Part shown: in pieces, positions 2,144 to 45,450 of the stretch
Layout of the letters: every line of letters starts with the position of its first letter
Numbering within the stretch: the stretch's first letter is position 1
From: Acorus gramineus
Taxonomy: Eukaryota; Streptophyta; Magnoliopsida; Acorales; Acoraceae
Direction of reading: 5' to 3'
Assembly: GCA_030737835.1 (NCBI GenBank)
Contig: CM060850.1
Coordinates: 15,146,068-15,210,067 of the forward strand
Length of the DNA: 64,000 nucleotides
Position numbers and translations under genes: made by a program
Notes under the pieces: model-generated
The model's database searches: none
Seen by the model: the letters and a program-made list of their open reading frames with translations, nothing else
What the model was told of the DNA's origin: nothing

Positions 2144-2269
2144 TACGAGGTTACTACATTATTGGGCACAAAGGAGTATGTCCGTAGTGGCCAGCTTTGC
2201 GTCGAAACATGATTGATAGGATGAGACTTGACGAGATCTAGATAGTGATGTGTAACATCAATTTATTTA

Positions 2270-6746: not shown

Positions 6747-7200
6747 TCATTAAAATAATAGATTACAATCACTTACTACATTATCATGGAAAATTGACAC
6801 CCACCCCTAAAAAATCATTCTTATATCTTTGTTTGACGCTACGTGCATTTATACGAAATTTTTGTTTTTTATTTTACTATATAATTGCATGTACCATTCA
6901 AATAAGTGCCTATGAGCTTTTGAGGAGGTGTATCAAGCAAAATGATATGTCTCTGGCTTTTTGTGCAACCCCGTCCGCAATTCTCACTAATTTTTTTTTA
7001 TATTAAAAAAATATGCAGTCTCTCAATGAAATACATACTGCAATAAAATGTGAAGTATACACTGTAAATCATGTACTAATATTTTTCTTTTTGAAAAAAA
7101 TAAAAATTAATTTTCATACACTGTAATATTTTTTAAGTAGAATATACACTGCAAGTATAATGCAATATTGCAGTGTATGAACTGCTGGAGGATGTGGCAA
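6747..7200. repeat. dispersed repeat, copy R1
   Basis: Similar to 56290-57600: shared TATCATGGARAAWTGACA, then TTTGTTT with GCATTTATA and GAAATTTT, then TCAATGAAATA and CACTGCAAGTATAATGC blocks. R1 lacks the Mutator-like foldback that interrupts R2, so it approximates the empty site. No gene seen. Confidence 0.5.
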
Positions 7201-8690
7201 ACCCAAGATTTTTATTAAATGGGGGTTTGAATAAAATTATTACATGAAATATATAAAAAATAATTCCAACTATTTTTAATCCATTATGTCCCTTGCCTTT
7301 TTTAACATATGTAAACATACACATGCAAGTTAGCAGTTACATTTTTTTCAGGTCGTTCCGTCTAAATCCAGTCACACTGTGCACTTTCTATTCAAAATAC
7401 CCTCAACAAAGTTCACAAATGTATTAATACATAGGTTATGCAACAATGTACAATGATATATAACAGTCTCCGAGCATTGTAGAAGTTTGTCAAATGCATC
7501 AATGTATAGGTTTATATGACTATAAAGATGGACAACAATACTGTACAAGTATCTCAAAAAATTTGTTTAACAACATACACATAGTGCAAAATATAATAGG
7601 GTATTTTTGGAATTCCAAAAAATTGGAAAAGCAACAGAAATGACACATGAACACCAAGAAACATGTAATTGCTAACTTAAGGGTGATATCATCATATACT
7701 AAAAATATATAGATCGGTGACTTAAAAAAGGGTGTTAAAAATACTTGGAATTAATTTTCTCAAATATAGAACAAAAATTTCATAAATATGCATTGCATCA
7801 TTCATATAAAATTTTAAATAAAAACATTAAAAAAAATTCATTGTATCATTCATGAAAAATATTTTTTTTTCAAGATTATTTCGTTAATCTTATGATTTCG
7901 GTTTGGACAAGAAATTTTTTTATTATTATATTGACTTTTTTTTTTCCGATTCTCTTTGTTTTTATTGTATGATATGGTTATATATTAGTTTTTTGTTTTA
8001 TTAATGTAGGGGGACGGGTGGGGGACGGCCTTAAGTCCCAACTCAATACGTGGGTCCGTCCGTGGCTTGATGATCGTTTCATAACTCAGATGATGTTGTA
8101 AAATATACTAATTAATAAAGGTGTGTTTGTGCATAATTGCACAAACACGAAGCAAAATATACTAAGGGTGTGTTTGTTCTTAAACACGAAGGGAAATCGA
8201 AAGAAAAAGAAGGAATTTGAGTCAAAATAAAATTGATTGAAAAAAAAATCATTTTTATTTTAATCAGCTTATTTGTTGTTTGCACCGTTATGATAAATGA
8301 TGGAAAATAAAAATTATTGTTTGTGTATGTGATGAAAAACGACGTAAAATAAAAACTTTTCATTGTGCTTGTGATGAAAAATGACAAAAAATAAAATACA
8401 TGTTTGCGTTATATATAAAAAAAAATAAAAAATGACAAAATAAAATAAAATATATTGTTAAAATTATAAAAAAAAAAGCCAATCAACGAAGGCATGTCAC
8501 CTAAAAATTAAAGTTTTTAAATAAATATTTTTTTTGTTTTATTATAAAATTAAAAATAAGAAAAAGCAAAAACATTTTCTCTCATTTTTCCACTCTTCCC
8601 ATGTGTTACAAAAACACCCTGACTGTTCGAGTTCCACACATGTGAAACACGACATTATGGTGACTACCTAGTATCACCAGCGACACGCGC
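7201..8690. other. 5' intergenic region of the aminotransferase gene
   Basis: No gene seen. AT-rich, with scattered short repeats such as GGTGTGTTTGT (about 8121 and 8166) and GATGAAAAAYGAC (about 8330-8390) that suggest remnants of small transposons. The proximal ~100 bp are less AT-rich and hold the putative promoter. Confidence 0.4.
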
Positions 8691-8700
8691 CTATAAATAG
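8637..8700 (+). promoter_or_regulatory. putative core promoter of the aminotransferase gene
   Basis: A TATA box CTATAAATAG lies at 8691-8700, 96 bp upstream of the start codon, placing a start of transcription near 8725-8735. A palindromic E-box-like CACATGTG lies at 8637-8644. No experimental support; judged from position and motif only. Confidence 0.6.
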
Positions 8701-8738
8701 TCCTCCTGCACCTCCAACACAAACACACAAATAGAGAT

Positions 8739-8740
<2 letters not shown>

Positions 8741-8769
<29 letters not shown>

Positions 8770-8786
8770 TCTGTGTGTGTGTGTGT
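8741..8786 (+). repeat. (CT)13 then (TG)n microsatellite in the 5' UTR
   Basis: CT repeats from 8741 to 8766 run into TG-rich sequence up to 8786, ending 10 bp before the ATG. CT runs are common in plant 5' UTRs. This one is likely length-variable and would be transcribed. Confidence 0.85.
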
Positions 8787-8795
8787 CAGTCTCAC

Positions 8796-11700
8796 ATGGC
8801 TCCTACAACACAGACTTCTGTTCATGAGATCAATGGCCTTCAAAACGGTTGTCCAGCAAAGTCTGGCAACCATAAAAGCATTAACAATGGAGGGCACTAT
8901 GAGGTTCTCTCTAACCCATTGTTGATGCAGCAGAAGGGGAGCCTTAGGAGCGTTGTTTCCGATCTCACATCGCGTCCCAACCCCGATAAGTCTGTCATCA
9001 GCCTCGCTCTCGGCGACGCCTCGGCGTTCCCTTGCTTCAGGAGCGGCCGAGACGCACTCACCAAACCCGTGTTCGATGTCATCGACTCGGCTCTCTTCGA
9101 CGGCTACCCTCCCTCCTTCGGCTACCCCTTCGCTCGCCGGTAACGCCCCTCTCATTTATAACTTCTGCGTGTCAATCTTTTTTATAATTTAAAATACAGT
9201 CATATATATCTAATTAACCCACACAGCTCATTATGTTTAATGTTTTCATTTTCTTTATCAAAAAATAGTTTTCTTTGCCAATGTGCACACGCATTTTCAC
9301 ACTTCACCTGCTTTTAATTTTTTTTAAGAGTAATGTAGAATTTGTATTTTTATAAAAAAAAATATAAGTTGTATGGACACATTTATAGGAAATATAAAGA
9401 AATTTAATGAGATATTTATCTCATTGTTTGTTAATGTGATAGACGGTTAATGAGATATATGAGACTGAAAAAAAAATTGTGTATGACAATGCTATTTTAT
9501 TAGCGCTGTTACATTATCTCTTAAAAAAAATTTCACATTTAAACACAACCGAGTCATCCATACAATTGTTGGAATATATATAGTTTTCTTCAAAAATTAG
9601 AACTCATTTGATGCATACTATTTTTTAATTAAAATAGGTGGAAGGCTGTAAATGGGGATATATATAATATTTTCTTTTTTTAATATATTTGTTTGTTATG
9701 TAAAAAAAAAGAGAGAAAATTAATTCTAATATTTTTTTCAATTATTGCATTTTTGAGTTTTTTGTATTTGTTTATTGTATATAAAATAATAGGAAAATTA
9801 ATTCTAAGTATGTTTTTCAACCTCAGCCACGATTATATATTTTTCTAGATCCTTTTTGTCTTCCTCCTTTCTGTTGTTTAATTACCCATTTGATTCATTG
9901 TACACTGATTGTTATGTACTTCGTGTACGTTAGCTATTAAATCATATATTATTACTCATTCCTTGTACATTATTATGTGATTCCAGTGCATTATTATGCA
10001 TTTAGATATATTTTAAAATCTCTTATATTTTTATCATATACAAACTATAGTTGGACAGAAGGAATTAGAAAAAATATGCTCGCTAAATTGAGAATGTATG
10101 ATATGCTTAAAAAGCTGAGGGATATTAAAAAATTGGAATTAATTCTCCGAAATTGAAAAAATATGCCGACTTATATATTTATTATGTAAAATAATAAATG
10201 TAGATCTCACACAAGTTTGAATATATTTAAAATATTTACACGACTAATGACTTAATATTATTTTATATAAATAAATACAATTTTTTTTTGGGAAAAATAA
10301 ATAAATACATTTTTTAAAGAATTGAATACATGTATTTTATTATTTATATATATTCAAATATATATATTACTTTACGTGATATGGAATCAACATGAATCTA
10401 TGCAAAAAAAAAAAGGCATCTGAAGACTCGAATAAAAAAAAAAATACAACTTGGGCAAGTCTTATTTATTTTGGGAAACTGGGAATTCTTTCTGCCATGT
10501 TGGAGCCATTTAATAATCTCAGGTGTCAATTAATGATACTTGTGTTCATGTTTGGCTAGCTATTTATTTATTTTGGTGATACGTGTTTGGCTATTTTTGT
10601 TTTATATACATTAGGCCTCCCTTGAATCTTGGCAAAAAGCTAAAATACTTCACTAGCTGGTTTAAGTGCATATAGTAGGTAGTACTGTTTTAAGAGAGGT
10701 CTAACATATATTATTAGAAAAATGCATATGGTAGGTAGTACTGTTTTAAGTTGCTACATTCAAGGCCACAACATCCACACACAGTACTAATTAGTTTGAC
10801 TGATCACATGTAAATCGTACTTCAAAATTTTTTTTCTCTTAAGTTTAACTATTAGAAAGGGTGACAAAATGTTTACCATCATCTTAGTCCCATTTTATCT
10901 AACCAAATATTTATTTTGTTAGATGAAACATATAATTTATTTTCTAATTTTTATAAAAATCTATATATACAATTTATTTAAATATATGATTTATTTGATT
11001 TATAAATACATATTTCACCGGTAATTTTTTAAAAAATGAATAATTTACTTACTAAATATATTTTTATCTCTATTTATCCACTACTCACTACAAGAAAAAA
11101 TATTTTTTGCCCTATAACTTTTACCAAGAACACAATTTGGTTCGTAATTATATACGACTACCGGCAAAAATCATAGTTTGTAGGTAAAAAATGGTAAATG
11201 TTTCCGTAGTGTTCCTTGGTAAAAATATTCAAAATTACTTTATTTGAATTATACATATATTGTTTACTAGTAAACAATACATATATAATTTCAATTCATT
11301 TAAAAGATATATGGATCTATATATCATATATCTTGTCGGTCGAGAAATGAACTTAAAATTAGTGGTGCAATTTAGACGAATTAAACTCAATCCGATCCGG
11401 GTTGTAGAATGGTTCAAGTTGGGATTTTCTCCTATCCGGTTCAACCCGACCTGGATCTGAGATTTTCTCATTTAAAATTGTCGCACACACCAACATGCCC
11501 CCTATTCGGTTCTCGTGAACCGAATATTCAATAGATGTAACATTTATTAACTCTGGATCTACAGTTTCCAATTACAATGAATTATCCCTTGAGTTTATTC
11601 ATTGAATCTACAATTTATTGATCTAAAATAATATAATATTATTTTGCATATAAATGGAAAAGTGGTTGATTATTCAATTTCAATTTTTAAATACTCACTT

Positions 11701-25137: not shown

Positions 25138-27933
25138 TATTACGTCTTAGAGCGGCCGTTCCCGGATCATAGCAATATATAAATATCAGGTGATCAATAC
25201 AAGAGGTCAATAATGTACTCCAAGGGATACATCAATGATTCAACATATGACATATCTAGTTTAACAAAGCAATAATAACAGATAGCTTATCAGAAAGTGC
25301 AGAAGCGTAAAATGACATAAATCTGTAATCCAAAGTAATATTACAGATCCAATTAACACAATTATTGTCCCGTGAGAGCCAAGTCTAGTCAAAATCAACT
25401 AAAAATAACGACATGTACCTCAAGCACGAATACCATAACATACAGGTAAGAGGAATGCTGACGGCCTCACGCTCACAAAACCAAAAGACAAAATGCTGCA
25501 ACAACTACAGGAATCTCACCTCGTGGGGTCCTCCTTCAAGATCAAATCAGCCCCTGGTGGAGGAACAACAAACGAGGGGTGAGCTACAAGCTCAGTGAAA
25601 GGTAAGAAGCTACACACCGCATCTATATCACATCAATAGTACAATAATAGTTCCAACCAAGACATGGAATAACCTATAATAACAGAACATCACGCAATGA
25701 CGTGCCCTCACTACGCCCTCACTCTTGCCCATATGGATGAAAAGAGAATTTTGGGATAAATCAGTACGCTAACGCCCTACATCATCCGGTAGCTCTCTTC
25801 CTGGCGACCTTCCAACATCATGGCAGCACCACGCAAGAAAGTTTCAACGCTGGACAGCTTCAACGCACGATGATATGTAAAAGAAACACTCTACACTCAC
25901 AATATAACCCTTATGAATCCTCCAATATCGGTTAGTCATTACTGATACGCTATCGAATTCTCATGAATTCCATAAAGTTGCATCCCTCGGATGCAGGAAG
26001 ATTAACTATATTCACAACTGAATAATGTCCTAGCATACCCCAAAGGCGGGTCCTACACACACCTATAACTGATAGGCAAAGTTTAGTATTCAAGTATTTA
26101 GTTTAAACATGCCATAATATATCAAAGCGAAATATGGAACCATACAAACTTAATGATAAATAGCATACCACATATTTAACTAATCATTGAGCAAATTCAA
26201 TATACGAATCTCCTATGACATACCATATTCAATGATATTAAATACATAAGATACAATATTATGCTAGCAATAGTTGTATAAAAATACGGTTATTTATGCG
26301 TGTATTATGGTATTCAAACAAGTAATCGGTGCAATATAAGTTGTCCACGCAAAATGCAATTTATAAATATATGTGTGCATTATCTAACATGATAAGTTAT
26401 AATCCTAATAATACGTCTATTTATATGAATACTATATAAATATAGCACTCTTAGAATACACGGAGCATGGCTACATGTATTACGCACTTCTTAAGTGGGT
26501 GGATCGAACCACTCACCGTTACCCGGATCGTCAAGAGTTCTGTCAACGAAAGCTGCAAAACACAATCAATGATGCTCAATTAAAATATGAAGTCTCCTGA
26601 CACACATACAAGCAAACTTCATGAAGACACTAACTCTTGATGGTTCTCACATCATGCATAATAGTTCTTTGACACACAATCAAGTAAAATTGGTGCATCT
26701 ACTACAACCAGAACTAAACTTTAATCTCCACATCACCAAATACACATCCAATAATTCTGAAATTAATCATACACGTTCTTTGACATGTTAGGATCATAAT
26801 TTGTGTAGACATCATAATCTGATTTCACCTTTACATGGCCGAAATAAAATATTTCCAGAAACTAGTCATTTCCTACGCGAATCTGAACAGTCCATGCAAA
26901 TCAGGTTCTAACTTACAACACAGATAATATTATGATACCAAATTTCATATATAGAATCTAGACATATGGATGATCATATCATAGGCGGACACAATCCTAA
27001 AAATATGTCTCTAAGTACTAGTTTCATAAGGATTGTTACAGGACAGAAATCTGCCATATTATAACACAAAACTCCCAACAACAAGAAAAGGGGAAAAACA
27101 CATACAACAACACCTATGCATCCTTGCTGACCATCCAAAGCACCATATAACAACACTCATACTTCATTGAAGCATAAACATAAACACTTACACGACACAA
27201 AGGGGAAACAAACATACCATGAAAAGAAGAGGGGAAAAGGATGCACACAAGGGATTCCACCACCACCACCACCACCACAAGCAATCAATCCATCACACAT
27301 GCATAGCCATTGCCACCACTAGATCAACACCCTCACATAAGCCAAAAGAAACAATGAGGTTAAAAGAATGCCATGGAGAAGAAGAGGGAGGTGGGGGGAA
27401 ATACAAGGTTCACACACATACTCACCATCCTTTTCACTCTTCCTTCATTTTCTTCTCTTCATCTTCACTTGCACCACCAAAAATCACACACAAAGGGGGC
27501 TGCCCTAGAGAGAATGAAAGGGGGGGAGAGAGAGAGAGATTAAACTCAATTTAGGGTTTTGAGAATGAGATGGGGGCAAAAGAGGTAAAAATGTGCTTGG
27601 TGTGATGAGATAAGGAGGGGGATATACTTAGCCTTACACTCACCTCTAATAGAGACATTAGGAACCAAGGGTTGGAGAATGGGGTGATACTTGCCTAGAG
27701 TCACCACCCACCCAATCAAACAACCAACCAAAACCCAGTAACAGCTAAACACGGATACCATTTGGAACTGTATAATTTTAAAACGATGCCAGAACGCAAT
27801 GAAAATTTACAGGTAGGTCAAAGCAGATACTAGGATCACCGATATGCGGTTATATTTTTAAACTAAGCGTCTGAACTCTAAAAAGAAATAAAAACATGAT
27901 ATTTAATCACTCAAAAGTAACACAAACATAACA
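25138..27933 (-). repeat. 3' LTR of G1
   Basis: 2796 bp; minus strand begins TGTTATGTTTGTGTTAC. Uninterrupted, so it shows the pre-insertion sequence for G2 (ACAGCTAAACACGG near 27745). A (CCA)n run at 27259-27279 is why a His-rich frame appears. It carries the split-leader signals described at 26517-26552. Confidence 0.88.
26517..26552 (-). other. 36-nt exon-like block in the 3' LTR of G1
   Basis: On the minus strand: acceptor TTTTGCAG, then 36 nt starting CTTTCGTTGACAG and ending GGGTAACG, then donor GTGAGTGG. An upstream donor CATG/GTATGTTT lies at 27217, and a downstream acceptor CCACCAG ends at 25554 after GCTCACCCCTCG. Same layout and same block length as in G2 (42757-42792). Confidence 0.55.
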
Positions 27934-29567: not shown

Positions 29568-32156
29568 TTTTACGCCTCGGAGTAGCCGTCCCCGGATTGT
29601 AGCAATATATAATTATCAGGTGATCAATACAAGAGGTCAATAATGACTCCATGGGGTACATCGATGATCCAACATATGACATATCTGGTTTAACAAAGCA
29701 ATAATAATAGATAGCTTATCAGAAAGTGCAGAAGCATAAAATGACATAAATTTGTAATCCAAAGTAATATTACAGATCAAATTAACACAATTACTGTCCC
29801 GTGAGAGCCAAGTCTAGTCAAAATCAATTAAAAATAACGACATGTAACATACAGGTAAGAGGAATGCTGACAGCCTCACGCTCGTAGAATCAAAAGACTG
29901 AATGCTGCAACAACTATTGGAATCTCACCTTGTGGGGTCCTCCTTCAAGATCAAATCAGCCCCTGGTAGAGGAACAATACACGAGGGGTGAGCTACAAGC
30001 TCTGTGAATGGTAAGAAGCCATACACGACATCTATATCACATCAATAGTACAATAATAGTTCCAACGAAGAAATGGAATAACCTATAATAACAGAACATC
30101 ACGCAATGACGTGCCCTCACTCTTGCCCATAGGGATGACAAGAGACTTTTGGGAGAAATCAATACGCTAACGCCCTACATCATCTGGTAGCCCTCTTCCA
30201 GGTAGCCCTCTTCCTAGCGGCCTTCCAACATCATGGTGGCACCACGTAGGAAAGCTTCAACGCTGGACAGCTTCAACGCACGATGATGTGTAAAAGAAAC
30301 ACTCTACACTCACAATATAACCCTTATGAATCCTCCACCATCGGTTAGTCATTACTGATACGCTATCGAATTCTCATGAATTCACATAAAGCTGCATCCC
30401 TTGGACGCGAGAAGATTAACTATATTCACAACTGAATAATGTCCTAGCATGACCCCAAAGGCGGGTCCTACACACACCTATAATTGATAGGCAAAGTTTA
30501 GTATTCAAGTATTTAGTTTTAACATGCCATAATATATCAAAGCTAAGTATGGAACCATACAAACTTAATGATAAATGGCATACCACATATTTAACTAATC
30601 ATTAAGTAAAATTCAATATACGAATCTCCTATGGCATACCATATTCAATGATATTAAATACATAAGATAAAATATCATGCTAGCAACAATTGTATAAAAA
30701 TACGGTTCTTTATGCGTGTGTTATGGTGTACGAACAAGTAATGGGTGCGATATAATTTGTCCATACAAAATACAATTTATAAATATATGTATGCATTATC
30801 TAACATGGTAAGTTATAATCCTAATAATACGTCCATTTATACGAATACTACATAACTAAAGCACTCTTACAATACATGAAGCATTACGCGCTTCCTAAGT
30901 GGGTGGATCAAACCACTCACCGTTACCCGGATCGTCATGAGTTCTGTCAACGAAAGCTGCAAAACACAATCAATGATGCTCAATTAAAATATGAAGTCTC
31001 CTGACACACATACAAGCAAACTTCATGAAGACACTAACTCTTGATGGTTCTCACATCATGCATAATAGCTCTTTGACACACAATCAAGTAAAACTGGTGC
31101 ATCTACTACAACCAGCACTAAACTTTAATCTCCACAGCACCAAATACACGTCCAATAATTCTGAAATAAATCATACACGTTCTTTGATATGTTAGGATCA
31201 TAATCCGTGAAGACATCATACTCTGATTTCGCCTCTACATGGCCGAAATAAAATATTTCTAAAAACTGGTCATTTCCTACGCGAATCTGAACAGTCCATA
31301 CAAATCAGGTTCTAACTTACAACACAGATAATATTATGCTACCAAATTTCATATATAGAATCTAGAATATGGATGATCATATCATAGGAGGATACAATCC
31401 TAAAAATATGTCTCTAAGTACTAGTTTCACAAGGATTGTTACAGGACAGGAATCTCCCATATTATAACACAAAACTCCCAACAACAAGAAAAGGGGAAAA
31501 ACACATACAACAGCACCTATGCATCTTTGCTGACCATCCAAAGCACTAGATAACAACACTCATACTTCATTGAAGCATAAACACAAACACTTACATGACA
31601 CAAAGGGGAAACAAACATACCATGAGAAGAAGAGGGGAAAAGGATGCACACAAGGGATTCCACCACCACCACCACCACCACCACCACAAGCAATCAATCC
31701 ATCACACATGCATAGCCATTACCACCACTAGATCAACACCCTCACATAAGCCAAAAGAAACAATGAGGTTAAAAGAATGCCATGGAGAAGAAAAGGGAGG
31801 TGGGGGGAAATACAAGGTTCACACATATACTCACCATCATTTTCACTCTTCCTTCATTTTCTTCTCTTCATCTTCACCTGCACCACCAAAAATCACAAAC
31901 AAAGGGGGCTGCCCTAGAGAGAATGAAAGGGGGAGAGAGAGAGATTAAACTCAATTTAGGGTTTTGAGTGTGAGATGGGGGCAAAAGAGGTACAAATATG
32001 CTTGTTGTGATGAGATAAGGAGGGGGGTATACTTAGCTTTACACTCACCTCTAATAGAGACATTAGGAACTAAAGGTTGGAGAATGGGGTGATACTTGCC
32101 TAGAGTCACCACCCACCCAATCAAACAACCAACCAAAACCCAATAACAGCTAAACA
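29568..32156 (-). repeat. 5' LTR of G1, main part
   Basis: Similar throughout to 25138-27700. Interrupted at 32156 by G2; the remaining ~183 bp are at 44462-44644. The primer site TGGTATCAGAGCC adjoins at 29552-29564 on the minus strand. A (CAC)n run lies at 31659-31686. Confidence 0.88.
30921..30956 (-). other. 36-nt exon-like block in the 5' LTR of G1
   Basis: Same as 26517-26552: minus-strand TTTTGCAG acceptor, 36 nt, GTGAGTGG donor. The matching upstream donor is at 31620 and the downstream acceptor ends at 29963. One or two base changes separate it from the other copy while length and both splice-like edges are kept. Confidence 0.55.
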
Positions 32157-32929
32157 TGTTATATATGTGTCACTTTTAGCCTGCTGGTAACCGTTGGAGC
32201 GTTTTGACAGTTTTTCGTTTTTTTCGGTTTTCGATCGGTACCGCTAATTTTTGGACTGTTAGCTATCGTCCTGAGTTAGAGGACTCCGATTGGAAATCTA
32301 ACTGCATATTTGGTGTCCTGGTACCATTTTAGACCTCTCACGAAAATTTCATCGAATTCCGGTAACGTTCCTGAAATTTCACAGTTCCGGGGCGTATCCG
32401 GGTATTTTAAGTCACCCGCTATATAAGTGAAAGCTAAAAATATCCTGGCAATATTCATCATCCCCTACCTTGAGCCCTCTCTCTCCTCTCCTCCGTCATT
32501 CTTCCGTTTGAGGCCCTTAGACCCCTCAAAGCTTAAAAGTTAAAACCTAGGAAGTGTAGATCGGGTCCCGATCTACACCCCGGTGGTTTCAAATCCCAAT
32601 TCCGGTGAGTTTTGCCCGTCCGTCCGCCCTCTCTTCTCCTCTGTTTTGAGCCATCTCGGTGGTGGAGGTAGATACGGGCGTTGGAAACCTTTTGGGAGAG
32701 GTTTCGGTGCGCGGAGAGCAACCGGATTTCCTTTCCTCCCCTTGGTAAGCCTCTTTTTCCTCTCTTTCTTGCCTAGATGTATGCTAGGAGGGTGGAAATG
32801 GGGTTGGGTGGAGGTTGGCGGCGGTGGGTGGCCGTCGGGGGGCTGTGGGAGGTGGTCGGAGGCTGTGGGGTGGTCGGAGGTGGGTGGTAGGGGAGCTCGG
32901 GGTGGCTGGCTGCTGTCTCGGGCAGGGCA

Positions 32930-33960
32930 GCAGCGCAGGGCAGCAGGCGCAGTGTTGGCGCGGGCGTGCGCGCGTGCGTGCGCGCGTGCGTGCGCTCGGG
33001 CGGTGCTGGGGGCCAGCAGGGCTGGGCGTGCGGGCGCTCGGCTGGCGCTGGAGGCCAGCAGGGCTGGGCGTGCGCGCTGGGCAGGCTGGCAGGGCTAGCT
33101 CGGGTAGGCTGGGGGCAGGTGCACCAGTTTGCTGGGAGCGCGAGCGCGTGCGCGCGGGTGCGCGCGCGGGCGTGCGCTCGGGGGTGTAGAGGGAAGCGTG
33201 CGGTGCAGGCTGGCTGCGGGTAGTGGCTGTGCGCGCTGGCAGGCCGGGCTGGCTGGCTGGGCGCGCAGGCGAGCAGGGCAGGGGCGCTCGGGCATCAGGC
33301 GGGCAGTGCCCGGGCGTGAAGGCGAGCAGTGCTCGGGCCACTCGGCGATGCGCGCAGGCAGGCAACGCGGGCAGCAACGCGGGCAGGCTGGCAGGCGGGC
33401 TGGGGGCGTGCTGCCAGGCGCGCTGGGCGCGTGTTGCGCGGGCGTGCGCGTGGACGCTGGGTGAGGGTCCCGGGTGCTTGGCGCTGAGCGCTGGGCGCTG
33501 GGTCGCGGGTACCGGGTGCTGGCCGAGGGTGCTGGGCGCTGGGCACCGCTGCGGGGCGTCGTGCAGGGTGCGCGCGGGGCGGAGTTGGGGTGCGCGCGGG
33601 GGCGGAGCTGGCGGTGCTCGCATGGTGCGTGCGGGTAGAGGCAGGTGGTGCGCGCGGTGTGGGCGCGGAGCGAGGTGGTGCACGTGGGGTGCACGCGGGG
33701 CGAGGCGCTGCGCGCGGGGCGTGCGGGGTGCTCGCGGGCCAGCGCGAGGCGTGCGCGGTGCGCGCAGGCGGCTGCGCTGGGGCGCAGGGGGCGCGCGGTG
33801 CACCCGGGAGGTTTGGCGGTGCGCGGGGTGCGTTGGCTGAGGCGCGGCGGTGCACCCGGGCGATCGAGCGGCCGTGCGGGTGGTTGCCGGCCGTGCGGGT
33901 GGTAGCCGGAGTGCTCGGGTTAGCATGCGTGCGGATCGTATGCACGTTTGCCCGAGTGTT
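32930..33960 (+). repeat. extreme GC/CpG-rich block in the 5' LTR of G2
   Basis: About 1 kb made of GCGCGGGG, GGTGCGCG, CTGGGCGC-like imperfect repeats on the plus strand, very rich in CpG and in G on the plus strand. It lies wholly between the donor-like site at 32745 and the acceptor at 34047. Long frames on both strands here (Ala/Arg/Pro- or Gly/Ala/Arg-rich) follow from composition. Confidence 0.75.
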
Positions 33961-34047
33961 AGGTGTTTAGTTGTGGGTTTTGTGTGTTTGGGGTATTTTT
34001 AGAGTATTTATGTATTGTTCTCACCATATTGAATGTCTGTCTTGCAG

Positions 34048-34083
34048 ATCTGGACGGACGGTCGCGCGACGACCCAGATACTG
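34048..34083 (+). other. 36-nt exon-like block in the 5' LTR of G2
   Basis: Acceptor GTCTTGCAG, 36 nt from ATCTGGACGG to CAGATACTG, donor GTGAGTGGG. Identical in length and edges to the copies at 36050 and 42757. Confidence 0.55.
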
Positions 34084-35169
34084 GTGAGTGGGACAATCCA
34101 ACCCAGTAGAGAGGTGTTATACGCACTTGGGCGTATACCGACCTCTCTTGGGGCACCATGGATAGATATTGGCATGTGTAATATGTATATCATGCGAGCA
34201 TGATTTAATTGTAGAATGCATGTTACCCTAGACTTTGCATGTTAGGGACTTGCACCCTTAGGACATGTGTCTGAGCCGTGCACCATGTCCCCCGTTTCCA
34301 TGTTAGGAAGCCCGACCGATGCATGTGCCCTACTAGTTTATTTATTAAATTAAATGCTAGTAAATGTTAAATTGCATGTTATAGTGAATATTATAGGGGA
34401 GGGGCCTTGCGAGGACAGCGGTGAGACCCGGGTTAGGGTACACCGTGTTCCTTGTTTGGTTGTCGGGGTGTCCTATAACGGGAACTCACGCTGCCCTCCC
34501 GAGTTTCTTTCCCCAACGATATTCCACCCTGTTATAACTTTATGCATGTTCCCCGCATCGTAGTTATGCGCCCTGGTGGGTTCTGAGGAATTCAGAACAG
34601 TAGTGTTGTTATGATGTGTTGTCTGCGGATCCGAGTGGATCATATGCGATGGATAGGCTGTTCTGTTCCCTTCGTTGGATCCGTGTAGAGACTACCTCAG
34701 CGTTAGACAGGTTGTCCCGTGCAGGGGCTCCCAGTAGTAGGCGCCTCCTGATCTGGTAGAAGGACTGTGCTGAACGTGGGAGTGGCCAAACGACCTACGG
34801 AGTGAGGAGAGACTATCGGTTCCCTCAAACCTAAAAACCTAAAGCACGAAAAGTGTAGATCGGGTCCCGATCTACACTCCGGTGTTTTCAAATCCCGTTT
34901 CCGACGATCCTAGCCTCCCCGACCTCCCCTCTCTCTCCTCTGTTTCGGGCCATTTCAAGGGCCGTGATAGATCGGGGCGTAAGAGAACCGTTGGGAAAGG
35001 TTTCGGCGCGTGGAGAGCAACCGGACTTCGCTCCCTCCCCTTGGTAAGGTCCTTTTCTTCTCTTTTCTTGCATAGATGTATGCTAGGGGGATGGATCTAG
35101 GGTTGGGTGGTGGTCGGCGGCGGTGGGTGGCCGTCGGGGGTAGTGGGAGGCCATCGGAGGCCTTTGGGT

Positions 35170-35960
35170 GGGGGTGGAGGTGCTCGAGCAGTGGCAGGCC
35201 CTGTCCCGAGCAGCAGGCAGCAGCGGCAGCGGCTCAGGCAGCGCACATGCTGGGCGCGCGCGTGCGTGCGCGGGTGTGCGTGCGCGCGGGTGTGCGCGGG
35301 TCTGGTGCGAGGAGCTGGTCGTGCTGGGTGTGCTGGAGGGGAGCTGGCAGTGCTGGCGTGTGGGCTGGTGGCCTCGGGCAGCTCAGGCGCAGGGGCTGGT
35401 AGGGCGCGCGCGTGCGTGCGCTCGGGGAGAGCTGGAGGCCAGCTAGGGAGCTGTGCGCGAGGAGCTGATGGCGAGCTGCACGCGAGGTGCTGGTCGCGCT
35501 GGTCTGGGCGCGAGGAGCTGGTCGCGCGGGTGCTAGACGTGCGGGCAGTGGTGGTGCGTGCGCGAGGTGCTGGCGGGCAGGGGTGGTGCATGCGTGAAAT
35601 GGTGGCCGAGGGCAGTGCGCGCGGGAGGGCGTGCAGGGTGCGCGGGTGCTAGGCGCGACGAGGCAGTGTGGTGCGCATGGGGCGCGGTGAGGCGGCCGTG
35701 GTGCGCGCGAGGCGCGGCGAGGCGGTGGTGGTGCGCGCGAGGCGCGGCGAGGCGGCAGAGGTGCGCACGAGGCGCGGCGAGGTGGCGGAGGTGCGCGCGG
35801 GGTGCGTGCGGGGTGAGGCGCCGCGCGCGGGGGCGTGCGGGGTGCTCGCGGGCCGGCGCAAGGCGTGCGGGGTGCGTGGGCTGAGGCGCGGCGGTGCACC
35901 CGGGCGGTCGGGTGGCCGTGCGGGTGGTTGCCAGCCGTGCGGGTGGTTGCCGGGGGTGTT
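35170..35960 (+). repeat. extreme GC/CpG-rich block in LTR-B
   Basis: Shorter version of the block at 32930, with a local array GGTGCGCGCGAGGCGCGGCG near 35690-35800 whose ~33-bp unit repeats about four times. Again bounded by the donor at 35044 and the acceptor at 36049. Confidence 0.75.
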
Positions 35961-36049
35961 GGGTGTTTGCTTTGGGGTTTTGGGGTATTTTTTGTGTATT
36001 TAATAATATTTGTGGATTTATACTTACCAAGTAATACCCTGTCTTGCAG

Positions 36050-36085
36050 ATCTCGACGGACGGTCGCGCGTCGACCCGACTTCCG
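36050..36085 (+). other. 36-nt exon-like block in LTR-B
   Basis: Acceptor GTCTTGCAG, 36 nt from ATCTCGACGG to GACTTCCG, donor GTGAGTGGG. Differs from the G2 block at several positions but keeps length and edges. Confidence 0.55.
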
Positions 36086-38103
36086 GTGAGTGGGACAACC
36101 CAACCCAGTTTGGGAGGCGTTACATGCTTTGGGCGTGTACCGTCCTCCCCTGGGGCACATAGTGATTATTAACTGTTACTTTGAATCCATGTAAGCATGT
36201 TGTGTGTGTAGTAGAATGCATGCCACCCTAGACTTGTATGTTAGGGACTTGCACCCTTAGGATGTTGTGCATGAGCCGTGCATCATGTCACCCCGTTATC
36301 ATGCTAGGAAAGCCCTGACCTGAGCATGCGTCCCATTAGTTTGATTTATTTATTTAAATGCAAACTGCGATATATATATTAGCATGCCTTGGGAATATAG
36401 GGGGCCTTGCGAGGTTAACATTGAGACCCGGGTTAGGGTACTCCGTGTTCCTTGTTTGGTTGTCGGATGTCCTACATCGGGACCTCAGGTTACCCTCCCA
36501 AGGTCTCTTTTCCCCTTTATGCATTATTTATATTCCCCGCATCCTGGTTATGCGCGCTGGTGGAATTCAGAGGAATTCAAGACATTAGAGTTGTAGAGAT
36601 GTGCTGTCAGCGGATCCGAGTGGATCATATGCGATGGATGGGCTGTTCTGTTTTCCTCCGTTGGATCCGTGTAGAGACTACCCCGACGTTAGAAAGGTTG
36701 TCCCGTGCAGGGGCTTCCATCAGTAGGCGCCTCCTGATTTGGTGAAGGACTGCGCTGAACGTGGAAGTGGCCAAACGACCTACGGAGTGGGGAGAGACTA
36801 TCGGTGGACCAAGGGTGACCAACAGCCTAGTCAGTCCCAAGAGCCTAGGTCACCTGTTGAGAGGTGAGGGTGAGGGTATGGTGGGCCGGCGATGCGACGA
36901 CCCACAGGATTGTGAATGGATGATTATCAACCCGTTAAGTCCCAACATCCTAGGTCACCTATTGAGGGTGAGGGTGAGGGTAAGGGTATGGCGGTTCGGC
37001 GATGTGACGAACCCCCGGATTTGTGATATTTATGCCAGTTTTGAGGCTAGTGGTTTGATTAAATGTGGTTAATATGAACTGTATGCATGGGTTGTGCTAT
37101 TCACTGAGCGTGTGGCTCACCCCTCGCATATTATCTTTTTCAGTGATCTCTGAGGGAGGAGCTTCCCGAGCGACTACACCAGTAGAGGAGTAGCGCCGCG
37201 TCCCACGAGTTTTGAGGCCATCAGCACCCTTCTTTCTGTTGTATGTATATATCTCTGTGCTTAGGCACCTAGTGGATGTTGTATGGATTTTATTTGTGTA
37301 TATATATGGACATGTTGGCTTTCACAGGACGTATGATTATGTATCGAGTCTGTAGTATGTTTTGACTACAGACTCAGTCTTTTAGCTTCCGCATTTGGTG
37401 TATATATATATGTCAGCCCTGCTTTTATCTGTGACGTCATTTTTAGATGTTGTTGTGGTATATTATTGAACTCTTGTTACTGATATCATATATACACTTG
37501 CCGCGTCCCGGGGACGGCCGCCCTGGGGCGTGACAGGTTGGCGGTAGCGACCTACTAGTTTGCGAAATTGTTATCTTTTGTGGCTTTGGTAATGATATTG
37601 TGGATGATAAGGATTATCTGGTTGTGGTCAATATTGTCTGTGATGCATGGGTTGTGCCGTTCACTGAGCGTGTGGCTCACCCCTCGCACAATATTTTTCT
37701 TCAGTGTCATCTGAGTCGGATCTGGAGGAGGAGCTCCCCGAGGGACTTCATCAGTGGCGGAGTAGCGCCACGTCCCGCGAGTATCAGAGACTATCAGCAT
37801 CCCTTGTGCCTGTATGTATTATTTTTCGTGCTTGGGCACGTGTTTGTGTTGTATTTGGATGTCTTTGTATGTATATTGGCTCTCACAGGACATGTGATTA
37901 TGTATGGAGTCTGTAATGTGTTTTGATTACAGATTCAGTCTTTAGCTTCCGCATTTGGTGTGTATATATCATGTCAGCCCTGCTTTTGTTGTCTGTGTGT
38001 CATTCTGGCTGCTTGTGTATGATATTATTGACCTCCTGTGTAGATTCTGATATTTTATATACACTTGCCGCGTACCGGGGACGCCCGGGGCGTGACAAAA
38101 AGG

Positions 38104-38115
38104 TGGTATCAGAGC
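38104..38115 (+). other. primer binding site of G2
   Basis: TGGTATCAGAGC, complementary to the 3' end of plant initiator-Met tRNA, seven bases after the LTR end GTGACA. Confidence 0.85.
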
Positions 38116-38217
38116 CTGGTGCTGTCAGAGCCAATGGTCTTCTTTCGTAGAGATGAGTCCTAGGATTTTGATGTGAGTATTCTGATCCTAGTGTCTGGTT
38201 TTCTTAGGATTGCTGAT

Positions 38218-39542
38218 ATGTCTCCTCGTGGAGGACGGCGCGGACATAGTCCCTCTCGACCTTTGGAGGTTTCCGGACCTGCTAGAGGCGAGGATGCTAC
38301 TGGAGAGTCCACGGCTGTGAGGCCAGGATCGGCGCAGGAGCCTCCCGCACGGGAACGTGCGTTCGCTCGGATAGCGGATTTGGTGGAGACTCGGATCAAG
38401 GCACTGGAGGCCCAGACCAGAGTGTTGGTAGAGCAGACGCGGGAGATCCGGGAGCTGAGGGCGGCCCGTGATGCAGTTCCACAGGTCCCCTTGGTAGCAG
38501 ATCCGTCTGTGGTACCCGAAGTACCCCCAGTCCCCGTGGTGATTCCAGCGGCGAGGGTTCAGGATCCCCTGGCGAGGGAGGTGGGGCTAGAGGCTGCAGC
38601 GCGGGTGCAGCAGAGTGGCCTCGCAGCCTTTTTGAAGCTCCATCCTCCCGAGTTCTATGGCCAGTTGGCGGATCCCCTTGCCCCAGAGCGATGGTTGATG
38701 GAGGTGGAGGTGATCTTCTCGACCATGCTTTGCACCGATCGCCAGCGAGTCTCCCTGGCCACCTTCATGCTGAAGGGTAGCGCTGCCGACTGGTGGGCTA
38801 CCCGAGCGGTGGACATTCCAGAGGGAGTGGAGCAGCTATCTTGGGCAGGATTCGGAGTTATTTCCTGGAGGAGTACTTCCCGTTCTCGGCACAGCAGATC
38901 GTGGTGCAGGAGTTTGAACGGTTGACGCAGGGCTCTATGTCTGTCGCCGACTACTCCACGCGCTTCACGAGGCTATCAAGATTCGCTCCAGCTTTGGTGA
39001 TGGACGAAGAGGCGCGGTGCCGCCGTTTCGAGCTTGGTCTCTGCAGCGCCATTCGGGTGCATGTCTCCTCCCAGGCTTTCTCGAGGTTCTCGGACTTGGT
39101 GTCTCGGGCGAAGACAGTCGAGCGAGACCTCGGGATCATCGTAGGGGTTCCGACCCCTTCTGCAGATCAGGGTCCTTCCGGGAGTCGGGACCAGGGGCAG
39201 CGCAAGAGGAAGAGGCCCCGCTTCGAGCAGTCAGCGGCTGCCTCTCCTCCAGCTGATGCGGTGCCAGGGTGGGATCCAGCACCCATTGCAGCAGTGCCCA
39301 TCCAGTCCGTGCAGCCGGAGAGGCGGCGCTGTTTCCATTGTCAGCGCATCGGGCATATCAGATACAATTGCCCTGATGCTGGCCGACCCTGTGTGCTACC
39401 TCAGCAGCGGCAGCCGACGAGGCGTGCTCCTGCTCCTCTGCCGCAGTTTGCTCAAGGCAGGGTTGCAGCGCTTTCGGCCGAAGAGGCGCAGGTTTCGGGC
39501 GTCATGGTTCGAGGTAATGTTTTGTTCCCTAGCTCCCTATGA
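38218..39542 (+). pseudogene. gag region of G2
   Basis: Ty3/gypsy Gag: start MSPRGGRRGHSPS, a charged coiled-coil-like stretch (RIADLVETRIKALEAQTR), the Gag domain LHPPEFYGQLADPLAPERWL with CTDRQRVSLATFMLKG and DWWATRAVDIPEG, LTQGSMSVADYSTRF, and a CCHC knuckle CFHCQRIGHIRYNC near 39330-39372. Homologous to the G1 Gag. A few breaks; treat as a fossil. Confidence 0.8.
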
Positions 39543-39739
39543 ATGATTATATATGTGTGTTGATTGCTGTTAAGCATGTGTGTATTATCTCGTTGAGCGG
39601 GTAATGAGTGTGGTTGTTCAAGTTAAAGAGGCCGGGTTGTAGCCGTCCTGGCAGGAGGCTCTCATCCGTAGGTACCGCCGATGCAGTCGGAGGGGTACTG
39701 ATCGTGGGAGTGTGTCAGGTAGGGGCTAACCCGGAAATG

Positions 39740-40250
39740 GATTAATGGATGATGTCGCGAGCGTGGAATCGCTCTCCCCTTCGTTGGATCCGCGTAGTAC
39801 AGCCCCGGCGTTAGACAGGCTCCCGGTCAGAGGACCAGGCGAGCTACGGAGCGGGGAGAGGCTACCGGTGGACCAGGGGTAGAGAGCAGTCTAAGTCTCT
39901 CCCAAAGTCCCAATATGTCTCCTGATGGGAGTGAGGGTGTGGATGAGACAAAGACGCGTCAACTCGTGACCCAAATTGCTGTTCGACCATTCCCACGGAG
40001 GTTGGGTCCGGTCTTGAGATGGATGTTGAAGGACATCGTTGGGTGATCATCTAGATGTAGGTGATCCGGAAGGGGTTAGTTGTGTTATTTTAAATGATGT
40101 CTTCTTCTAGTGTTCCTTTCTGGATTAAGGGGCCTTGTGAGGTCGGCGTTGGAACCCGGGCTAGGGTACTTCGTGTTCCTTGTTTGGTTGTCGGGGTATC
40201 CTATATCGGGATTTCATGGTGCCCTCCCGAGGTTTCTTTTCCCAGACAAG
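39740..40250 (+). repeat. LTR-like segment inside the internal region of G2
   Basis: GTTGGATCCGCGTAG with GGCGTTAGACAGG, CTACGGAGCGGGGAGAGGCTA and GTCCCAATATGTC (about 39780-39920) match LTR sequence near 34676-34820 and the tandem array at 43556. GGGGCCTTGTGAGG through CCTTGTTTGGTTGTCGGGGT (about 40129-40196) matches LTR sequence near 34400-34470. The two blocks are in the opposite order to their order in the LTR. Confidence 0.65.
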
Positions 40251-40410
40251 GGATACCATGGAAGCATCAGATGGATGAAAGATCAAGTGCGAGTTTTGGT
40301 TAGAGGTTAAGGCCTTTGGGCTGGGTGATTTCTGGTGTAGGCATATCTGTGGACCCGGGTAAGACGCTTGCTATGTCGAATTGGCGTAGGCCGTCAAACC
40401 CCGCAAGGAT

Positions 40411-40877
40411 TTGGAGCTTCTCGAGTTGGCGGGTTATTGCAGGAAGCTTGACGAGGGTCTCTCGAAGATAGCTGTTCCTCTTAACCGCCTTACTTGGAAA
40501 GATGTCCGGTTCGAGTGGTCCCCGTCTTGCGAGGAGAGCTTCCTGGAGTTTTATCGGAGGCTCACCTCAGCGCCAATTCTTACCTCTCCGTCTTGGAGTG
40601 GTGGGTTCGCAGTTGGGTAAAGGTGTGTCCGCGATCCTGCTCACGTCATCCCGTTCGAGCCGCTCGTCTCTGAGCCGGATAGTCATTCGTGGAGCAGTCG
40701 ATTGAGATCATGGACCGCCGCGTGAGGAGGCTCTGCACCAAGACCGTCCAGTTGGTCGAGGTGCGATGGCAGCACCGTTCCGGTGTCAAGGACACTTGGG
40801 AGCTCAAGGATGCCAGGTGTGACGCATCTTTTCCCCTCCTAGATGTTTTTGCATATTTTGAGGACAAAATTTCCTAA
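40411..40877 (+). pseudogene. pol remnant of G2
   Basis: ELLELAGYCRKLDEGLSKIA and LNRLTWKDVRFEWSPSCEES match the region joining reverse transcriptase and RNase H in Ty3/gypsy pol. EIMDRRVRRLCTKTVQLVEV followed by WELKDAR matches the C-terminal end of such polyproteins. Only these small parts are seen. Broken fossil. Confidence 0.65.
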
Positions 40878-41629
40878 GGGGGGAAGAATGTTATATATGT
40901 GTCACTTTTAGCCTGCTGGTAACCGTTGGAGCGTTCTGGCAGTTTTTCATTTTTTTCGGTTTTCGATCGGTACCGCTAATTTTTGGACTGTTAGCTATCG
41001 TCCTGAGTTAGAGGACTCCGATTGGAAATCTAACTGCATATTTGGTGTCCTGGTGCCATTTTAGACCTCTCACGAAAATTTCATCGAATTCCGGTAACGT
41101 TCCAAAATTTCGCAGTTCCGGGGCGTATCTGGGTTTTTAAGTCGCTTGCTTTATAAGTGAAAGCTAAAAATAGAATTGCACTATTCATCATCCCTACCTT
41201 GAGCCCTCTCTCTCCTCTCCTCCGTTTTTCTTCCGTTTGAGGCCCTTAGACCCCTCAAAACTTAAAAGTTAAAACCTAGGAAGTGTAGATCGGGTCCCGA
41301 TCTACACCCCGGTGGTTTCAAATCCCAATTCCGGCGAGTTTTGGCCGTCCGTCCGCCCTCTCTTCTCCTCTGATTTGAGCCATCTCGGTGGTGGAGGTAG
41401 ATCCGGGCGTTGGAAACCTTTTGGGAGAGGTTTCGGTGCGCGGAGAGCAACCGGATTTCCTTTCCTCCCCTTGGTAAGCCTCTTTTTCCTCTTTTTCTTG
41501 CCTAGATGTATGCTAGGAGGGTGGAAATGGGGTTGGGTGGAGGTTGGCGGCGGTGGGTGGCCGTCGGGGGGCTGTGGGAGGTGGTCGGAGGCTGTGGGGT
41601 GGTCGGAGGTGGGTGGTAGGGGAGCTCGG

Positions 41630-42660
41630 GCTGGTTGGCTGCTGTCTCGGGCAGGGCAGCATGCGCAGTGGTTGGCGCGGGCGTGCGCGCGTGCGTGCAC
41701 TCGGGCGGTGTTGGGGGCCAGCAGGGCTGGGCGTGCGGGAGCTCGGCTGGCGCTGGAGGCCAGCAGGGCTGGGCGTGCGCGCTGGGCAGGCTGGCAGGGC
41801 TAGCTCGGGTAGGCTGGGGGCAGGTGCACCAGTTTGCTGGGCGCGAGCGCGTGCGCGCGGGTGCGCGCGCGGGCGTGCGCTCGGGGGTGCAGAGGGAAGC
41901 GTGCGGTGCAGGCTGGCTGCGGGTAGTGGCTGTGCGCGCTGGCAGGCCGGGCTGGCTGGCTGGGCGCGCAGGCGAGCAGGGCAGGGGCGCTCGGGCATCA
42001 GGCGGGCAGTGCCCCGGGCGTGCAGGCGAGCGGTGCTCGGGCCACTCGGCGACGCGCGCAGGCAGGCAACGCGGGCAGCAGCGCGGGCAGTCTGGCAGGC
42101 GCGCGGGGCGCGTGCTGCCAGGCGCGCTGGGCGCATCTTGCGCGGGCGTGCGCGTGGACGCTGGGTGAGGGTCCCGGGTGCTGGGCGCTGAGCGCTGGGC
42201 GCTGGGTCGCGGGTACCGGGTGCTAGCCGAGGGTGCTGGGCGCTGGGCGCTGGGCACCGCTGCGGGGCGTCGTGCAGGGTGCGCGGGCGGAGTTGGCGGT
42301 GCGCGCGGGGTGCGCGCGGGGGCGGAGCTGGCGGTGCGCGCGTGGTGCGTGCGGGTAGAGGCAGGTGGTGCGCGCGGTGTGCGCGCGGAGCGAGGTGGTG
42401 CGCGCGGGGCGAGGCGCTGCGCGCGGGGCGTGCGGGGTGCTCGCGGGCCAGCGCGAGGCGTGCGTGGTGCGCGCGGGCGGCTGCGCTGGGGCGCAGGGGG
42501 CGCGCGGTGCACCCGGGAGGTTTGGCGGTGCGCGGGGTGCGTTGGCTGAGGCGCGGCGGTGCACCCGGGCGGTCGAGCGGCCGTGCGGGTGTTTGCCGGC
42601 CGTGCGGGTGGTAGCCGGAGTGCTCGGGTTAGCGTGCGTGCGGATCGTATGCACGTTTGC
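41630..42660 (+). repeat. extreme GC/CpG-rich block in the 3' LTR of G2
   Basis: Counterpart of 32930-33960 with small length differences in GCGCG runs. Lies between the donor-like site at 41474 and the acceptor at 42756. Confidence 0.75.
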
Positions 42661-42756
42661 CCGAGTGTTAGGTGTTTAGTTGTGGGTTTTGTGTGTTTGG
42701 GGTATTTTTAGAGTATTTATGTATTGTTCTCACCATATTGAATGTCTGTCTTGCAG

Positions 42757-42792
42757 ATCTGGACGGACGGTCGCGCGACGACCCAGATACTG
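42757..42792 (+). other. 36-nt exon-like block in the 3' LTR of G2
   Basis: Same block as at 34048: GTCTTGCAG, 36 nt, GTGAGTGGG. In this uninterrupted copy the second intron-like stretch is 1266 nt (42793-44058). Confidence 0.55.
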
Positions 42793-43555
42793 GTGAGTGG
42801 GACAATCCAACCCAGTAGAGAAGTGTTATACGCACTTGGGCGTATACCGACCTCTCCTGGGGCACCATGGATAGATATTGGCATGTGTAATATGTATATC
42901 ATGCGAGCATGATTTAATTGTAGAATGCATGTTACCCTAGACCTTGCATGTTAGGGACTTGCACCCTTAGGATATGAGTATGAGCCATGCACCATGTCCC
43001 CCGTTTCCATGTTAGGAAGCCCGACCGATGCATGTGCCCTACTAGTTTATTTATTAAATTAAATGCTAGTAAATGTTAAATTGCATGTTATAGTGAATAT
43101 TATAGGGGGGGGGCCTTGTGAGGACAGCGGTGAGACCCGGGTTAGGGTACACCGTGTTCCTTGTTTGGTTGTCGGGGTGTCCTATAACGGGAACTCACGC
43201 TGCCCTCCCGAGTTTCTTTCCCCAACGATATTCCACCCTGTTCTAACTGTATGCATATTCCCCGCATCGTAGTTATGCGCCCTGGTGGGTTCTGAGGAAT
43301 TCAGAACAGTAGTGTTGTTATGATGTGTTGTCTGCGGATCCGAGTGGATCATATGCGATGGATAGGCTGTTCTGTTCCCTTCGTTGGATCCGTGTAGAGA
43401 CTACCTCAGCGTTAGACAGGATGTCCCGTGCAGGGGCTCCCAGTAGTAGGCGCCTCCTGATTTGGTAGGAGGACTGTGCTGAACGTGGGAGTGGCCAAAC
43501 GACCTACGGAGTGGGGAGAGACTATCGGTGGACCAAGGGTGACCAACAGCCTAGT

Positions 43556-43918
43556 CAGTCCCAAGAGCCTATGTCACCCGTAGTAGGGTGAGGGTGAGGG
43601 TGTAGTGGGTTGGCGATGAGCGACCTGCTGGATATGTCTATGGATGATTGTCAGTCCCAATATCCTATGTCACTCCTGTTGAGGGGTGAGGGTGAGGGTG
43701 AGGGTGTAGTAGGCTGGCGATAGCGACCTGCTGGATTGGTGTAGTTAGTCCCAATATCCTTGGTCACCCCTTGAGGGGTGAGGGTGAGGGTGTAGCGGGT
43801 TGGCGGAAGCGACCCGCTGGTTTTGTGTTGATTAGTCCCAATATCCTTGGTCACCCATTGAGGGTGAGGGTGAGGGTGAGGGTGTAGTGGGTTGGCGGTA
43901 GCGACCCACTAGTTTGCG
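43556..43918 (+). repeat. tandem array of about four 86-95 bp units
   Basis: Units begin near 43556, 43651, 43746 and 43832 with AGTCCCAATATCCT, contain GAGGGTGAGGGTGAGGGTG and end in GGGTTGGCGG..GCGACCC. LTR-B has about two diverged units (36830-37020). Confidence 0.8.
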
Positions 43919-45450
43919 GAATTGTTATCTTTTGTGGCTTTGGTAATGATATTGTGGATGATAAGGATTATCTGGTTGTGGTCAATATTGTCTGTGATGC
44001 ATGGGTTGTGCCGTTCACTGAGCGTGTGGCTCACCCCTCGCACAATATTTTTCTTCAGTGTCATCTGAGTCGGATCTGGAGGAGGAGCTCCCCGAGGGAC
44101 TTCATCAGTAGCGGAGTAGCGCCACGTCCTGCGAGTATCAGAGGCTATCAGCATCCCTTGTGCCTGTATGTATTATTTTCCGTGCTTGGGCACGTGTTTG
44201 TGTTGTATTTGGATGTCTTTATATGTATATTGGCTCTCACAGGACATGTAATTATGTATGGAGTCTGTAATGTGTTTTGATTACAGATTCAATCTTTAGC
44301 TTCCGCATTTGGTGTGTGTATATCATGTCAGCCCTGCTTTTGTTGTCTGTGTGTCATTCTAGCTGCTTGTGTATGATATTATTGACCTCCTGTGTAGATT
44401 CTGATATTTTATATACACTTGCCGCGTACCGGGGACGCCCGGGGCGTGACACAGCTAAACACGGATACCATTTGGAACTGTATAATTTTTAAAACGATGT
44501 CAGAACGCGATGAAAATTTACAGGTAAGTCAAAGCAGATACTAGGATCACCGATATGCGGCTATATTTTTAAATTAAGCGCCTGAACTCTAAAACGAAAT
44601 AAAAACATGATATTTAATCACTCAAAAGTGACACAAACATAACATTACATTATCATTTGTAAATGCATTCAGTGTACACAAAATTGTTATAGGTACAATC
44701 TCAAAGTTTCATTAAAATAGATACATCAATTGTTTGAATTACGGCGTTTTCTTCAAATCTTAATGATTAATTGTTGTCTCCCCCTTAATCATCTTCATGT
44801 CCTCTTGGGTAAAATGAAACAAGATTACTAAACTAGACATTCAATATACTTCATAACAAAGAACGGATTTTTCAAGCTATATCAGAAATACAACAATCAA
44901 ACACTTAAAGAAATTTTTATTTAGCAATATGAACAAAATTAGTAATAGCATGAATCTGAACTGTAAATTTATAAACAATTTTAATATTTTAATAAAATTA
45001 CTTCTTAATCCATGTACTTAACAATTACTGAAATTAACATTTACATAACAACTACAACAAACACTACCAATGTGATGCCCAATAACATAATCTACTATTT
45101 ATATAATAGAAATGTAATATCTTTTATTATTCTTATAACAATTACAACAGAAATTACAAAGAACTATAATTTACACAACAAATAAGTAATATCATACATA
45201 GAACTAAACTAAGGACATGTAAATTACATAAATGTAATAACTGATTACAGAAATGTAACGATCAATTACAGAAATGTAATACTAATTTATAGATGGAGGT
45301 GGTTTAGGTATAAAAAATGAGGTGGCGCAAGTCTAGGGGCAAAAAAAAAAAAAAAAGACTGGATTTTAGGGGTAAATAAAAAATTAAAAAAAGTCCGGGG
45401 GTAGAAAAAAAATTAGACTCTTAGTCAAGGGGTATTTGAGTAATTTCCCC

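Follow-up and report, generated by a model that had tools for sequence, protein, structure and literature searches.

The window, the whole 64,000-nucleotide stretch of Acorus gramineus DNA analysed here, carries LTRs of two Ty3/gypsy families, G1 and G2, assigned by their paired LTRs, a tRNA-type primer-binding site (GGTATCAGAGC) following the LTR, and a gag gene. Retrotrans_gag is recognised in both families and Ty3_capsid in G1. The G2 internal region, ~2.8 kb, consists of gag plus degenerate remnants, with sub-threshold matches to RT_RNaseH_2 (E 0.039) and Chromo (E 0.025), and G2 is compatible with a Tekay-type chromovirus (Tekay/Del). The bounds of the G2 LTR follow from a start word common to 32157 and 40889 and from the GGCGTGACA end at 44443-44451. 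The features are as follows.

25138 to 27760, minus strand: second G1 LTR, bounds approximate; block 26552-26517; candidate intron 2 26516-25554 (963 nt)
29568 to 32156, minus strand: G1 LTR, bounds as in the preliminary description; intron 1 31834-30957 (878 nt); block 30956-30921; candidate intron 2 30920-29963 (958 nt)
32157 to 38097, plus strand: G2 5′ LTR, interrupted by an LTR piece (about 34821-37535); intron 1 32745-34047; block 34048-34083; candidate intron 2 34084-37704, piece included
34821 to 37535, plus strand: G2b LTR piece, 5′-incomplete, without U3 and TATA; intron 1 35044-36049 (1,006 nt); block 36050-36085; candidate intron 2 36086-37143 (1,058 nt)
38098 to 40888, plus strand: G2 internal region; primer-binding site at 38105, gag ATG at 38218, gag remnants
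40889 to 44451, plus strand: G2 3′ LTR, the reference copy, repeat partner of the LTR starting at 32157
41180 to 41473, plus strand: exon 1 of the G2 reference, 294 nt with no ATG, ending CTTG/GTAAG
41474 to 42756, plus strand: intron 1 of the G2 reference, 1,283 nt, 73% GC, GT..AG, precisely lost in genomic copies
42757 to 42792, plus strand: 36-nt block, start of exon 2; left edge from loss copies, right edge predicted
42793 to 44058, plus strand: candidate intron 2 of the G2 reference, 1,266 nt; bounded by the GTGAGTGG donor and the anchored CAG acceptor, which recur across families
44029 to 44058, plus strand: GCTCACCCCTCG block with branch-like CTCAC, pyrimidine tract, and CAG
44059 to 44165, plus strand: predicted exon 3, up to a conserved GTATGT, with no ATG

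All five LTR copies in the window have the arrangement given in the preliminary description, an acceptor (TCTTGCAG or TTTTGCAG) followed by 36 nt and the donor GTGAGTGG, and the junctions proposed there coincide with the motif positions and the measured segments. Other particulars needed correction: intron 1 of G1, put at 0.66 kb, measures 878 nt with the donor ATGATG/GTGAGT, and the copy at 34821, listed among the five LTR copies, begins inside exon 1, lacks U3 and TATA, and sits within the 5′ LTR that starts at 32157. This G2b piece replaces part of the 5′ LTR, and recombination between copies looks likelier than a clean insertion. The first introns of the two families occupy homologous positions and are very unlike in make-up, that of G2 (41474-42756) being 73% GC with low-complexity sequence and that of G1 (31834-30957) AT-rich by eye. 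The start of G2 exon 1 was placed by inference at the TATA at 41150 plus 30, and its 3′ end is fixed by the 33 genomic junctions lacking the intron that are discussed below.

Genome-wide counts refer to one assembly only, the window's own (398.6 Mb, 137 contigs). The pattern TCTTGCAG-N36-GTGAGTGG has 9,617 exact matches, against 0 for a reversed-pattern control. With an acceptor word slightly looser than in that pattern, TTGCAG-N37..66-GTGAGTGG gives 3,210 matches (control, 17); in the ~100 listed, inspected by eye, the spacing is 37 or 39 nt with about five exceptions. Spacings of N6..35 give 457 (control, 50), including 32-nt forms. A sample independent of the block comprised 30 loci picked by a degenerate downstream anchor, which itself has 15,661 genome matches (control, 0). 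The G2 core is present in 20 of these 30, each with AG, 36 nt, and GT, the donor being GTGAGTGG in 19 and GTAAGTGG in one. Two loci are G1-type, L040 with 36 nt and a changed acceptor and L056 with 32 nt; L045 is altered on its acceptor side; and the other seven have no convincing core within the 1.5 kb examined, although L061 and L064 have a 39-nt and a 37-nt block, respectively, farther upstream. The 36-nt length is thus the main one, as proposed, but it is not invariant, since 37-, 39-, and 32-nt forms share the same edges; the suggested constraint on micro-exon length stands in that 36 nt dominates, and falls short in that length is kept loosely. It is a family habit rather than a strict requirement. 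As for the status of the block as a micro-exon, its left edge is supported by loss copies and its right edge is predicted. We also considered a hairpin in the block and rejected it, the z-scores being -1.5, 0.9, and -0.1 in three copies.

Splicing is supported by G2 copies without intron 1. In 33 genomic places the end of exon 1 is followed at once by the block, the break falling on the predicted GT..AG edges (13 exact, 3 with one mismatch, 9 with two, and 8 with three; control, 0). We extracted 30 of these (L009-L038), and all 30 have LTR sequence on either side of the junction, which reads CTTG or CTCG plus the block in 26 and has one extra G in four (L034-L037). Precise intron-less copies at predicted splice sites imply that spliced RNA was copied back into DNA, and the coexistence of intron-bearing and intron-less copies that both kinds of RNA were copied. 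In a tree of 67 LTR pieces, 30 without and 37 with intron 1, the intron label requires 13 changes, at least 10 of them forced by well-supported branches, although the tree counts label changes, and some may be gains or mixing of copies. Intron-less copies of different contigs cluster in places (L026 and L027 with L017 and L032), so some intron-less lineages may have transposed again.

One element, L077 (C2:7691000-7700500), lacks intron 1 in both LTRs, which lie at 1638-3950 and 6776-9074, with a primer-binding site at 3956, and are 96.6% identical. In the standard model of reverse transcription, R of both new LTRs comes from the 5′ end of the RNA, so a template spliced there explains why both LTRs are intron-less. 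Four further same-strand pairs of intron-less places, 5.1-7.5 kb apart (C54, C59, C65, and C78), are candidates for single elements. The L077 internal region is of the same size as that of G2 and aligns with it at about 86%; the short form of G2 (38098-40888 and L077) may have multiplied. From the sequence evidence, precise removal of G2 intron 1 at GT..AG as a spliceosomal intron is supported. For G1, a genome-wide search with either candidate donor found no intron-1 loss, returning 6 and 7 weak matches with 2-3 mismatches (control, 2 in the second search); none of the six loci read (L113-L118) is an intron-less G1 LTR, and L116 is an ordinary G1 acceptor.

The signals of intron 2 recur across families, with the GTGAGTGG donor on one side and the anchored CAG acceptor on the other. 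The later acceptor proposed after the shared GCTCACCCC block is borne out: CAG lies 19-23 nt past that block in 29 of the 30 anchor-chosen loci, the other (L048) having CAAG. Its tract has 8-11 pyrimidines of 12 in the 30 loci, and the letters of the tract vary while CAG and the tract itself are kept, so that acceptor 2 looks functional. All 30 extracted intron-1-less copies run on from the block into intron 2; 28 keep GTGAGTGG, the other two (L013 and L031) being damaged there, and 26 extend, within the extracted flank, as far as the anchor close to the 3′ end of the intron. A genome search of one family with up to 3 mismatches found no junction of block and exon 3, nor did a degenerate pattern with up to 1 mismatch. 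The proposal of a leader spliced twice therefore stands for intron 1 of G2, with its precise intron-less copies, and not so far for intron 2, which is kept in the loss copies and yields no junction. A real second intron is plausible, in which case its splicing would be confined to non-replicating RNA; otherwise the segment is no intron at all. Repeated GGTGAGGGTGAGGGTG runs lie within it at 43570-43890.

The putative leader is largely free of ATG. Over 282-289 nt, exon 1 is free of ATG in 33 of 39 rows, and the joined exons of the copy at 40889 have 0 in 437 nt, against 3.4 expected, a count as low being reached in 17 of 1,000 shuffles. The 35 ATGs of intron 2 and the 9 of the U5 tail in the same copy agree with expectation. 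Splicing would thus remove many upstream ATGs in G2, with U5 and the spacer still preceding gag. G1 has an ATG in exon 1 and in one of two blocks. Exon 1 also contains a perfect inverted repeat (41283-41307, and the same site elsewhere), letter-perfect in 23 of 39 rows, and the 81 nt around this hairpin fold with z -3.3, none of 200 shuffles being equally stable. Farther downstream, GTATGT (44166-44171 and equivalents) is present in 44 of 53 exon-3 rows, and in 42 of these the first ATG downstream of acceptor 2 falls within it. It was tried as the donor of a third intron and rejected, the preceding base never being G in the 44 rows. A poly(A) element with the motif UGUA is perhaps a better fit for the conserved GTATGT.

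We favor a partly spliced, largely AUG-free, non-coding leader within each LTR, with mainly unspliced RNA replicating, and put its probability at roughly 70%. Four other readings were weighed against it. The intron-less copies could be ordinary DNA deletions that involve no spliced RNA, since LTR deletions are common and a CTTG repeat lies at either edge of the intron. Deletion between these repeats predicts the shifted junction CTTGCAGATCT, which has no match with one mismatch or fewer and 3 with two, where the splice junction has 16 and 25, and the three matches look like mutated ordinary acceptors; identical exact edges recur, moreover, and the intron is missing from both L077 LTRs, which together make deletion extremely improbable. 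A more serious contender is that intron 1 alone is real, that GTGAGTGG and the GCTCACCCC block are not spliced and owe their conservation to a role in packaging or regulation, and that the 36 nt are the start of a long second exon. The retention of intron 2 in intron-1-less copies and the missing junctions of block and exon 3 fit this well, as does the near-invariance in G2, which in the anchor-chosen loci extends throughout the 24 nt past the donor, so that donor 2 in this family is no more conserved than its surroundings. Against it, the donor word is kept across G1, G2, and the 39-nt families, and a good acceptor with a changing pyrimidine tract is found in all but one of the anchor-chosen loci; we consider it unlikely, without dismissing it.

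The three exons might instead encode a small LTR protein whose frame the 36 nt preserve, and an open frame does run across the joined exons to a homologous stop in most 36-nt rows. These rows come from 64 acceptor matches after de-duplication, 17 of them without an assigned block or with an odd one, and one row pairs a block with exon 3 of the enclosing LTR. Convincing by eye, the coding frame fails a codon-position test in three of four segments: third-position excess reaches p 0.03 in one exon-3 class and is not significant in the exon 1 tail (p 0.35), the block (0.11), or the other exon-3 class (0.46), in a comparison that left out poly-C-length variants, duplicates, and exon-3 rows of other lengths. 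Exon 1 has no in-frame ATG, and the frame is lost in all seven 37-nt copies examined, which leaves a protein very improbable. Alternatively, the block donor may be used together with an acceptor immediately upstream of the gag ATG; the product would be a subgenomic RNA of retroviral type that lacks the primer-binding site. At 38180-38220 the gag ATG is preceded by a YAG that resembles an acceptor, with a branch-like TTCTGATC, and G1 and a third family have similar sites. A site of the YAG/GNTGCTGAYATG kind, accompanied by a branch-like word, is conserved before gag in the families seen, and it could complete the removal of upstream ATGs. The genome has 2 matches to the block-to-gag junction against 5 for the control, which is chance level and weighs weakly, as such an RNA would not be copied back. 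We think it improbable, if less so than a coding role.

Under the partly spliced leader that we prefer, transcription would presumably start just downstream of the TATA box. The spliceosome would remove intron 1 in some RNAs, which are later reverse transcribed, as the intron-less G2 copies support. Other RNAs probably lose intron 2, which would run from GTGAGTGG to the acceptor that follows GCTCACCCCTCG. Intron 1 would nearly always stay in the replicating RNA, and intron 2 in every case seen. Places that bear intron 1 number in the thousands and those that lack it in the dozens; the ratio is rough, each count coming from a particular pattern, and it points to a replicating RNA that nearly always escapes splicing. 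Most likely it is mainly unspliced RNA that serves replication, the spliced RNA having other uses, and intron 2 may contain an element required for replication, for example a packaging signal. More tentatively, and with doubts that outweigh our confidence, we can picture a complete three-exon unit in which splicing sorts a replicating pool, with intron 2 kept for packaging, from a non-replicating one, and in which rare copying of RNA spliced at intron 1 leaves a countable record, including intron-less lineages that multiplied.

Some retroviruses, HTLV among them, have a splice donor in or near R (PMC3504254, PMC12789967). Unlike retroviruses of that type, these LTRs contain a whole intron, perhaps two. 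According to PMC12786077, plant LTR elements are generally intron-free, Ogre and EVADE being named as exceptions. In Ogre (a gypsy element of pea and Medicago) and EVADE (an Arabidopsis copia element) introns are likewise spliced from only some transcripts; in contrast to the LTR introns here, those named in the available text lie in the coding region (PMC6317226, PMC12786077). BARE1, a Ty1/copia element of barley, has a 104-nt intron at the end of gag, not in the LTR, and according to the portion available its authors were unable to amplify any copy of the spliced RNA from genomic DNA (PMC3735527), whereas G2 has such copies. Retrosat2 and Tekay (Del) are gypsy elements with LTRs of >3 kb ending in GGGCGTGACA, like the G2 LTR, and the available excerpts (PMC3485330, PMC6317226) mention an additional ORF0 upstream of gag-pol in Retrosat2 and no LTR intron in either, PMC3485330 being without the word intron altogether. 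A search of titles and abstract openings in the open-access literature turned up no paper on introns that lie entirely within the LTRs of plant gypsy elements, which is weak evidence, as subscription papers mostly fall outside it.

An intron in the repeated part of the LTR presents a paradox: a template spliced near its 5′ end would strip the intron from both new LTRs. With thousands of copies bearing the intron and a few dozen lacking it, the replicating RNA is evidently mostly unspliced, and the exceptions count the leaks. The division of plant retrotransposon RNA between translation and replication is thereby partly testable from genomes alone, and these LTRs bring splice sites wherever they insert, which is relevant to gene annotation.
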